The notes under the pieces are model-generated. The model was not told the origin of the DNA. It saw only the letters and a list, made by a program, of their open reading frames with translations, and did not search any database. Of a stretch of DNA of 40,747 nucleotides, positions 38,209-40,747 are shown in pieces; the stretch's first letter is position 1; each line of letters starts with the position of its first letter. Source of the DNA: Bacillota bacterium (GTDB lineage Bacteria > Bacillota > Sulfobacillia > Sulfobacillales > Sulfobacillaceae). The DNA is taken from assembly GCA_021797825.1 (NCBI GenBank), contig JAJZZA010000028.1, positions 1 through 40,747 on the forward strand. Direction: 5' to 3'. The translations under genes and the position numbers were made by a program.

Positions 38209-38676
38209 GTGCCAATGGAGGTCCGGTTTTCCCGCTGTGCGGACCTGGCTATCCACAAGAAGATGGTGGTCGCGGGTGTGAGAGGCGAGACGCCTTCCGA
38301 AGATCGTCCACTCTTTGGCACCCCTACCGCGCAATGGCACACCCTGGCACCCTGGTTGACCGAGCCCCGCGCGACCCATGTGGCCATGGAATCGACGACC
38401 AACTACTGGAAGCCGGTGTTCAACCTGCTCGAGCCGACGTTCAACACCTGGCTGGTCGACCCCGCGCACATTAACCAAGTGCCGGGGCGGAAGACCGATA
38501 TCAAAGATAGCGAAGGGATTGCCGATCGGCTGCAACTCGGGTTGCGGCGGCCGCGCTGCGGGAACTGACCCGATTCCGCACCTCGCTGATCAGCGAGCGG
38601 GCCCGGAAGGTCAACCGCGTGCAAAAGGTCGTGGCGGGCGCCAATATCAAGATCAGCGCCGTGTTGAGCGATGTGT
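38209..38676 (+). pseudogene. IS110-family transposase, frameshifted N-terminal fragment
   Basis: The first 119 codons (GTG at 38209 or ATG at 38215 behind AAGGAG) match the DEDD domain of IS110 transposases: CADLAIHKKMVVAGV, AMESTTNYWKPVFNLLEP, then VPGRKTDIKDSEGIADRL. The usual first catalytic Asp in LDVHKK is replaced here (LAIHKK). The frame then breaks near 38560; homology resumes in another frame as LRELTRFRTSLISERARKVN and continues to ANIKISAVLSDV near 38670, after which it disappears. The C-terminal Ser-containing transposase domain is missing. The element is dead. Confidence 0.85.
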
Positions 38677-39211: not shown

Positions 39212-39649
39212 GTGGGTTCGTACGAAATTCCGGCCGAGGAGGAGCAATTGGCACGTTGGCAACGCGATTTGGCATTGTGGACGATGCGTGGAACCAACTT
39301 GGAGCCGACTGTCCCCGAGGGTAGCACGTTGTTGGTGCAGACCCGATGGCGAGTCATCCATCGCGACGATATTGTGGTCTTTAAGGCACCCGCCATTAAC
39401 CTACCGTATCTTTGGGTCTTGCGCATTCGGCTTGTTCCGGGCGACCTGTTGCCGGAATCCCTACAGCGGGACGATCGACCTCTCCAACTGCCGGAAAGCC
39501 ATTATTGGCTGCAGGGCGGAGATCGTGCCTACGATAGTCGTCACTTCGGATTCCTCCCTGGGTCCGCGATTCGCGGCATTGTGCTCGGCCTATTACAGGG
39601 TGGGCCACCGGTCACCATTGAGCACCTAAATTATGCGGGACCGTTGTAG
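39212..39649 (+). CDS. Signal-peptidase-I-like (S26) protein lacking the catalytic dyad
   Basis: A 145-residue soluble protein with the box order of type I signal peptidases: MRGTNLEPTVPEGSTLLV (box B), DDIVVFKAP (box C), VLRIRLVPGD (box D) and GGDRAYDSRHFG with SAIRGIVLG (box E). In box B the catalytic Ser of the usual S-M-x-P-T is Asn, and in box D the position of the general-base Lys is Leu. There is no N-terminal membrane helix. It resembles small S26 peptidases such as the nickel superoxide dismutase maturation type, but should be proteolytically inactive. The GTG start follows GAGGAGGGTGAG. A 7-bp hairpin (CGGCAAA/TTTGCCG, 39656-39681) lies just after the stop. Confidence 0.7.
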   Translation: MGSYEIPAEEEQLARWQRDLALWTMRGTNLEPTVPEGSTLLVQTRWRVIHRDDIVVFKAPAINLPYLWVLRIRLVPGDLLPESLQRDDRPLQLPESHYWLQGGDRAYDSRHFGFLPGSAIRGIVLGLLQGGPPVTIEHLNYAGPL

Positions 39650-39790: not shown

Positions 39791-39819
39791 TTGACATGGC
39801 TACCGGGGATTTGTATGCT
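39791..39819 (+). promoter_or_regulatory. Strong sigma-A-type promoter before the MFS leader
   Basis: TTGACA (39791-39796), 17 bp, TATGCT (39814-39819). Transcription would start near 39826 and produce a leader of about 140 nt before the MFS start. Confidence 0.75.
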
Positions 39820-39851
39820 TGGGCCCACCAAACGCAAGGTAGGTGCGTCCC

Positions 39852-39917
39852 ATGTTCTCTCCGATGACGATGCGTAATGCGCCCGCCAGGGAGAGATCTG
39901 CCCGTTTGCGGATTTAA
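39852..39917 (+). CDS. Candidate 21-residue regulatory leader peptide
   Basis: A short ORF starting ATG at 39852 behind AAGGTAGGTG (6-7 bp spacing), about 25 nt into the predicted transcript. It ends with TAA 17 bp before the terminator stem. The peptide is rich in Arg and has two Arg-x-Arg motifs (RER and RLR near the C-terminus). Arg-x-Arg motifs are known sites of macrolide-dependent ribosome stalling in leaders such as ErmDL. It reads across one strand of every competing leader hairpin, as expected for translation-coupled attenuation. Expression is not proven. Confidence 0.55.
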   Translation: MFSPMTMRNAPARERSARLRI

Positions 39918-39933
39918 CCTCGGGCTTCGATCC

Positions 39934-39966
39934 TCCCTCCGCATTGTGAATTCGGAGGGATTTTTT
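39934..39966 (+). terminator. Intrinsic terminator/attenuator overlapping the MFS ribosome binding site
   Basis: TCCCTCCG (39934-39941) pairs perfectly with CGGAGGGA (39953-39960), followed by six T's (39961-39966), and the MFS GTG starts at the next base. The 3' strand of the stem contains the GGAGGG ribosome binding site, so the hairpin would both stop transcription and hide the start. An alternative pairing of GGGAGAGATC (39889-39898) with GATCCTCCC (39929-39937), one bulged A, would prevent it. CTCTCC (39857-39862) can in turn pair with GGGAGAG (39889-39895). Confidence 0.7.
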
Positions 39967-40656
39967 GTGCCATCCACCAAAGATGTGGTACTCCTGGCGA
40001 TCGACGATGCCACCGTCACCCTGGGCGCGCAGTTTCGCGAGGTCGCGTTGGGGCTTCTCATCACGGGGCTTAATCCAGCTTCATCCAGTTATGCGTGGTA
40101 CTTTCTTGTCGGCTCGATTCCCGGGTTGGTGCTCCCTCGGGCCTACTCGTGGGTTAGCCGACGCTTTAGCGCCAAGCGGGTCATGCTGGCGACCTATGCC
40201 GCTCGCCTCATGCTGGTCCTGGGGCTGTGGCGGGTGGTCAATTTTTGGGCGGCGTTGGCCCTGCTGGGCGGACTGTCGGTAGGACGCGGGTTCTATGCGT
40301 CCGCGCAGGCCCACTACGTAGCCGTCCCCGACGACTTTGCTGCCACACGCCACGTCATCATGCGCCTACGGCAGTCGGAGAGCGCCCTACGGCTCGCGGG
40401 TCCGCTCCTCGCCGGGCTCGTTCTGGCTGGGAGCGGGTTCCGCAACGGATTTGTCATTGCGGCGGGTGGTTATGTAATCGCCATGCTGGCAGTGTCACGA
40501 CTTTCCCGTGGCCAGGAGGGCTCCCCGGGTGCCGCATGGGATCGGATGGACTGGCGTCCGGATGGCGCTGCCGCGGCCCGGTTCGGGTTAAGCTTCTTGA
40601 CCTGGCAAGCTAATTCCCTGGCCTTGGCTTATACCGGGTGCACCTCAAAATTGTGA
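39967..40656 (+). CDS. MFS transporter (drug-efflux type), N-terminal half only
   Basis: 229 codons from GTG at 39967 behind GGAGGGA. The protein has about six hydrophobic segments; LVGSIPGLVLPRAYSWVSRR with the following K resembles the MFS loop 2-3 signature, and LRQSESALRLAGPLLAGLVL resembles helix 5 of the macrolide-efflux (MefA, MFS_3) group. Normal members have about 400 residues; here the frame stops at 40656, after SLALAYTG, in sequence that no longer looks like a transporter. I cannot tell whether an insertion near 40640, a frameshift or a small half-size protein explains this, because only 91 bases remain and I recognise nothing in them. The attenuator-like leader suggests it was drug-inducible. 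Confidence 0.65.
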   Translation: MPSTKDVVLLAIDDATVTLGAQFREVALGLLITGLNPASSSYAWYFLVGSIPGLVLPRAYSWVSRRFSAKRVMLATYAARLMLVLGLWRVVNFWAALALLGGLSVGRGFYASAQAHYVAVPDDFAATRHVIMRLRQSESALRLAGPLLAGLVLAGSGFRNGFVIAAGGYVIAMLAVSRLSRGQEGSPGAAWDRMDWRPDGAAAARFGLSFLTWQANSLALAYTGCTSKL

Positions 40657-40747
40657 TCACGCCGCGATGCGCCTTTGGACTGGCACGAGTTGGGCGCAGG
40701 GGTGTTGTGCCCAAAGGCTATCCCAGCGTTGGGAGCGGTGCAAGGCG

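Follow-up and report, generated by a model that had tools for sequence, protein, structure and literature searches.

A conserved leader with a short ORF and alternative hairpins precedes an MFS transporter gene in an order of acidophilic Bacillota

The vmlR leader of Bacillus subtilis is switched ON by a ribosome that is kept at initiation or close to it (PMC9226507), and in the same species the bmrB-bmrCD attenuator responds to several 50S inhibitors (PMC4191407). Other leader peptides are known to stall ribosomes at R/K-x-R/K motifs, as in the MTASMRLR peptide of mef(E) (PMC4335068) and at the RYR of tlrB, where the stalled ribosome itself blocks termination (PMC6851288). Here we describe a leader from the window, the whole stretch of 40,747 nucleotides that was analysed, which makes up contig C154 in a genome of 3.6 Mb. 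In its region 39791-39969 a promoter is followed by a leader ORF of 21 codons, by segments capable of three pairings that exclude one another, and by a terminator placed over the start of a gene encoding an MFS transporter (Table 1). This attenuator is real and conserved and probably belongs to the vmlR/bmrCD kind.

Architecture and conservation of the leader

Table 1. Features of the leader region and the MFS gene in window coordinates (asterisk, stop codon).
Feature	Position	Strand	Description
Promoter TTGACA-17-TATGCT	39791..39819	+	Found by sequence scan
Shine-Dalgarno region of leader ORF, AAGGTAGGTG...	39836..39851	+	SD is AGGTAGGTG
Leader ORF	ATG 39852..TAA 39917	+	21 codons, MFSPMTMRNAPARERSARLRI*
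Segment 1, CTCTCC	39857..39862	+	5' arm of anti-antiterminator; codons 2-4
Segment 2, GGGAGAGATCTGCCCG	39889..39904	+	3' arm of pairing 1:2 and 5' arm of antiterminator 2:3
GGGAGAGATC within segment 2	39889-39898	+	
Segment 3, CGGGC..GATC-CTCCC	39921..39937	+	3' arm of antiterminator
GATCCTCCC within segment 3	39929-39937	+	
Intrinsic terminator	39934..39966	+	TCCCTCCG (39934-39941) and CGGAGGGA (39953-39960), then T6
MFS ribosome-binding site, GGAGGG	39954..39959	+	7 nt before GTG 39967; inside segment 4
MFS gene, N-terminal 223 codons	39967..40635	+	Start GTG 39967; gene split in window genome

The preliminary description of this DNA had proposed a promoter, a 21-codon ORF with its own ribosome-binding site, competing stems and a terminator burying the ribosome-binding site of the MFS gene. 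The promoter, the ORF and the stems are present as placed, each pairing is stronger than its shuffles, and the GGAGGG of the MFS gene lies in the 3' arm of the terminator. Taken on its own the promoter match is at chance level (1 found vs 0.9 expected); nearly all homologues for which upstream sequence is available have a -10 box some 27-33 nt 5' of the leader start. The antiterminator of the window leader (W) is longer than first described, as GCCCG (39900-39904) also pairs with CGGGC (39921-39925), giving GGGAG-A-GAUC-U-GCCCG with CGGGC-UUC-GAUC-CUCCC in full. The terminator, from whose sequence termination is predicted, has a stem of 8 bp, a loop of 11 and a T6 tract, of which stem and tract are kept across 18 leaders, and was missed by a simple terminator scan because that scan takes loops of 3-8 only. 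All relatives keep a G-rich MFS ribosome-binding site. In the consensus fold, alignment columns 55-69 (window 39889-39903) are predicted to form a local hairpin, GGGAG-AGAU-CUgCCC, which could be a polymerase pause hairpin. Directly 5' of the leader the window carries a truncated-looking ORF with a signal-peptidase S26 match (39212-39649, 40.1 bits), other genes occupying this place in the relatives examined, and further upstream the N-terminal part of an apparently truncated IS110-type (DEDD) transposase (38209-38568, Pfam 34.6 bits).

MFS orthologues were collected by a DNA search in relatives and a protein search of the family and the order, and the genomes related to that of the window include Sulfobacillus benefaciens and other 'Bacillota' MAGs. 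Conservation in homologues had been set beforehand as a test of the proposal. The resulting alignment (A1) comprises 18 leaders of the window's own family (f1), 17 of which have an ORF reaching segment 2, and the pairings are kept. Every f1 orthologue of the MFS gene that retains an N-terminus has the leader, a unit of about 134 nt that occurs as a single copy per genome in 18 genomes and always 5' of the MFS gene. Control of other genes by the same leader was ruled out: searched with a covariance model built from A1, 18 genomes of the order yield a single site apiece, and every time this site is at the MFS start. The GGTG just 5' of the leader start codon is nearly invariant in A1 (G8 in all leaders, G7 and T9 in at least 90%), the GGGAG of segment 2 is invariant, and 34-37 nt separate the start codon from segment 2 in all leaders. 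The only leader to have lost the ORF, L034, reads MFSR* and lies 5' of an MFS pseudogene; that genome (G007) still has the leader's RNA segments above the pseudogene, whereas the ORF has shrunk to 4 codons. Neighbouring genes gave no operon clues, as the flanking genes vary between genomes.

All three pairings are seen at the level of the alignment. Segments 1 and 2 pair in 82% of the cells of A1 (45-76% in slid controls), segments 2 and 3 in 89% (53-66%) and segments 3 and 4 in 92% (48-76%), and the arms form stronger duplexes than their own shuffles, with mean z of -2.6, -2.6 and -1.8, respectively. Pair counts do not exceed the column-shuffle control, and formal covariation is weak because segments 2 and 3 hardly vary in their cores. 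The antiterminator hairpin folds in W and its relatives with a mean z of about -2.2 against interior shuffles (17 leaders), and has a z of -0.12 in the leader of the MFS pseudogene. Its upper stem differs from leader to leader, being GCCCG/CGGGC in W, UCCGUUU/AAGACGGA-like in L026, of the CGUUUGGG type in L018 and a 9-bp GAUGCGGGU/GCCUGUAUC stem in L028 and L030.

Selection on the architecture as such is best seen in a second family of the order (f2), whose four leaders have another sequence and the same design. The f2 MFS proteins are 31-35% identical, segment 1 is UUCCCG(CG) located at the leader start codon, segment 2 is CGCGGGAG, segment 3 is CACUCCCCGC and segment 4, GGGGAGUG, precedes the MFS start and closes a CACUCCCC/GGGGAGUG terminator. 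Segment 2 has thus changed in sequence together with its partners. The peptides are MIPAIGIRLAEALGPPRETCVLNAV, MVGIRLLEALGPPRETCALKAV, MIPGVGIRLAEALGPPRE* and the frame-shifted MAGLELAEAFAAAAGDVRP*, with the ending ..GPPRE, and the longer ORFs of both families stop 29 nt past the start of segment 2. The f2 segment-2 motif was not found away from the f2 MFS leaders, and in two f2 genomes (L059 and L061) the MFS gene follows straight after a hydrolase-like gene, with no leader in between.

Two halves of the leader peptide

The f1 leaders encode MFSPMTMRNAPARERSARLRI, MSLPLTIAQSPPRERSAQNSL, MSPLAIAKIPPRERSACWPI and MFAPLMIILAPPREESIRLRV among other peptides. Their coding signature was scored on a codon alignment made by hand, in an RNAcode-like manner, by comparing BLOSUM62 scores with the expectation for equal base changes and using column permutation as the null. 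Codons 2-12, in the part reading M-F-S-P-L-T-I-A-x-x-P-P, reach z=4.6 (0 of 1000 permutations attain it), the other two reading frames score negatively, and z is still 4.4 when near-duplicates are removed (14 representatives) and about 3.6-3.95 for codons 5-12. In contrast codons 13-21, scored over the 11 leaders with an unbroken frame, give z=0.79 (55/300). The first half of the peptide with its Pro or Pro-Pro is therefore under peptide selection, which supports, at the level of sequence comparison, conservation of the leader ORF as a peptide.

The preliminary description had named the leader peptide as the likely sensor through its Arg-x-Arg motifs. The ORF is conserved as a peptide, but the Arg-x-Arg part bears no coding signature and is lost in 6 of 17 leaders: three stop earlier (MFSPLAIANAP*, MFSPLLLTAPP* and MFTPRMQDISP*) and three pass segment 2 frame-shifted. 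As judged from the aligned codons, this half is not detectably under peptide selection and is the antiterminator arm read as codons. A programmed frameshift joining MFSPLLLTAPP to the RERS frame in L026 was considered and dropped because the leaders L020 and L028 likewise stop at the prolines.

These data bear directly on a sensor of the macrolide/ketolide type, in which a ribosome stalled at RER or RLR of the leader peptide would induce the MFS gene. Both motifs are present in the window peptide and have the precedents in mef(E) and tlrB given above, but the exact RER occurs in only 7 of the 17 leaders and RLR in 3 of the 17, in codons that carry no coding signature. A ribosome at this place covers or has passed segment 2, so that no antiterminator forms in the folding calculations, nor would it reach the terminator and cover it in the tlrB manner, as the CTCCC of segment 3 starts about 45 nt past codon 12. 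We therefore regard Arg-x-Arg stalling as a very improbable input.

The same signature weighs against a translation-independent leader, in which the ORF would be incidental and segment 2 would be the site of a ligand or a protein. Stems kept without the ORF would have been a sign of such a riboswitch; the ORF is broken only in front of the MFS pseudogene. It is true that GGGAGAGATCTGYCC hardly varies, whereas the frame in which it is read does, and that the local hairpin of segment 2 is also possible. However, z reaches 4.6 upstream of segment 2, the SD, the start codon and the distance from start to segment 2 are kept, the ORF is lost only together with a dead gene, and in f2 segment 2 has changed along with its partners. 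The claim that the leader belongs to no known riboswitch was borne out in Rfam, where nothing matched at gathering score and the only weak match was anti-hemB (14.6 bits vs 49.5). This explanation appears to us just as improbable as Arg-x-Arg stalling.

Ribosome position and the proposed mechanism

To relate the position of the ribosome to the pairings, leaders were folded with a 32-nt ribosome footprint masked and segment 4 not yet transcribed. In f1 the mean 2:3 pairing is 0.85, 0.89, 0.90 and 0.87 with codons 2, 4, 6 and 7 in the P-site, and falls to 0.57 at codon 8, 0.09 at codon 9 and 0 at codon 11. The absence of 2:3 with the ribosome at codons 10-12 follows from geometry, and what the calculation adds is that, with segment 1 covered, 2:3 wins. 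In f2, three of the four leaders form 1:2 when no ribosome is present (0.87-0.96), 2:3 forms in all four with the ribosome at codons 1-8 (0.67-0.87), and 1:2 returns in L058 and L060 with the ribosome at the late stop. At full-length equilibrium with an early ribosome, some two thirds of the f1 leaders prefer 2:3 to the terminator, and the terminator is favoured in W (even with segment 1 masked), in L025 and in most f2 leaders. The model therefore needs kinetic, co-transcriptional folding; kinetics usually matter in attenuators. As long as segment 4 has not been made, 1:2 does not win at equilibrium in W and several other leaders, and basal termination may consequently rely less on 1:2 than on a ribosome covering segment 2.

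From the anatomy, its conservation, the coding signature and a folding predicted to depend on where the ribosome sits, we consider it likely that the leader is a ribosome-mediated transcription attenuator, with translational locking of the ribosome-binding site, of an MFS exporter. The polymerase would make a leader in which segment 1 lies at the very start of the small ORF. An unhindered ribosome would free segment 1 to take segment 2 (1:2, the anti-antiterminator); alternatively, a ribosome reading Pro, Pro-Pro or Pro-stop at codons 11-12 would itself sit on segment 2. By either OFF route segment 3 would pair with segment 4, transcription would end, and any read-through mRNA would have its MFS ribosome-binding site locked. 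If translation were held at initiation or within the first ~8 codons, the ribosome would cover segment 1, the long 2:3 antiterminator would form, and the MFS gene would be transcribed with its ribosome-binding site exposed. Such a hold could come from a ribosome-targeting inhibitor acting on M-F-S-P-L-T-I-A, and the ON window, from initiation to about codon 8, coincides with this peptide-conserved stretch. It also matches the codons at which inhibitors that act early in translation would hold the ribosome, as in vmlR (PMC9226507). The inducer is probably a translation inhibitor, and we infer that the input is one that the transporter exports.

This ON/OFF logic would operate in vivo with the prolines acting in its timing: at their position a ribosome that pauses or terminates lies over segment 2, and they may thereby lower basal expression. 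A tentative extension, which we think possible though rather unlikely, is that the leader has two opposed control points, slow translation of codons 1-8 turning the gene ON and a Pro-Pro or Pro-stop pause at codons 11-12, on the antiterminator arm, keeping it OFF. If true, this would explain why some lineages have dropped everything after the prolines and yet keep the prolines.

The least probable reading is a trp/his-type attenuator responding to amino-acid starvation (e.g. for proline or leucine), the MFS protein being an amino-acid transporter. The codons Pro4, Leu5, Pro11 and Pro12 are conserved and the hairpin wiring is the same as in trp-type attenuators. However, no single regulated codon is repeated in a run; L019 and L024, in which segment 1 changes too, have another residue for Pro4, so that pairing can account for its conservation; a ribosome stalled at Pro11/12 would lie over segment 2 and give OFF, the wrong sign; and the top match of the fold search is drug-exporter-like.

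The MFS transporter and comparison with known attenuators

The MFS orthologues are about 380-395 aa long (Pfam MFS_1 39.9 bits vs a cut-off of 33.4 for L018), single-copy, apparently monocistronic and confined to this order among 154 genomes of the class searched. In the window, homology to them ends at residue 223, and from 40636 to 40747 the sequence is a repeat also found on contigs C113, C156 and C141. The window ends inside this repeat and the C-terminal half of the MFS gene is located at G000:C139:113-565; the gene has apparently been split by the inserted repeat, which is probably an insertion element. The closest relative, L064 (G048:C98, about 1870-2100), has a frame change near MFS residue 105, and MFS residues ~196-299 match on the opposite strand, a local inversion of about 300 bp in the gene. 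Pseudogenes were also observed in L034/L015 (G007:C92) and L055 (G010:C89). The damage in G048, G007 and G010 indicates that some lineages can do without the gene, which is what would be expected if it is of the resistance type.

The transporter had been called MefA-like. Its nearest curated family is indeed NCBIfam TIGR00900, which 12 of the 18 members match weakly (best E 4.8e-16) and which we take to be the TC 2.A.1.21 subfamily that includes Mef. However, the two members tested against its cut-off lie far below it (L018, 22.4 bits vs 319.6) or do not match (L021), so the label exceeds the evidence and macrolides are not specifically indicated. No characterised MFS subfamily matched above cut-off in NCBIfam, and neither a PDB profile match nor a plasmid relative was found. 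An AlphaFold model gives a confident MFS fold (pLDDT 88.6, pTM 0.86), and the top PDB match of a fold search is the multidrug exporter NorA (14% identity, E 2.5e-9), with VMAT and further MFS structures ranking next, a similarity that at 12-14% identity is generic for MFS proteins. The model points to an exporter-like MFS transporter.

A literature search for Sulfobacillus leader peptides returned nothing relevant, and we know of no earlier description of such an attenuator in the acid-mine relatives of Sulfobacillus. With the present leader, ribosome-mediated attenuation of the drug type would also reach an order of acidophilic Bacillota. The peptide family M-F-S-P-L-T-I-A-x-x-P-P is unlike the known Arg-x-Arg types and, to our knowledge, also unlike IFVI or MYLIFM. 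The locus also illustrates a general trap, namely that a stall-like motif can be an antiterminator arm read as codons; comparing the coding signature between parts of the ORF tells the two apart.

Among the described systems, mef(E)/mel shares with this leader an MFS exporter attenuated at transcription via a short leader peptide, but its peptide, MTASMRLR, has a C-terminal MRLR stall site within a 327-nt leader with four stem-loops (PMC4335068). The tlrB (yxjB) leader likewise combines a leader peptide, a terminator and a structure that sequesters the ribosome-binding site; it differs in that an RYR stall ends a 9-residue peptide, the ribosome blocks the terminator and the target is an rRNA methylase (PMC6851288). 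In bmrB-bmrCD of B. subtilis the leader ORF overlaps the anti-antiterminator, the antiterminator and the terminator and the target is a drug exporter, but this is an ABC exporter with a 53-codon leader and the terminator inside the leader ORF (PMC4191407), whereas here the terminator follows the ORF and overlaps the ribosome-binding site of the transporter. The vmlR leader resembles the present one in its uORF inside the anti-antiterminator hairpin, its antiterminator, its intrinsic terminator and the locking of the ribosome-binding site of the controlled gene, in vmlR a resistance gene, and differs in controlling an ABC-F gene with a 3-codon uORF, a separate hairpin for locking the ribosome-binding site and a NusG pause (PMC9226507). 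Host and gene are different in vmlR and in the leader described here, the relation of the two sequences having been compared through Rfam only; the two have in common the arrangement of their hairpins around a short ORF.
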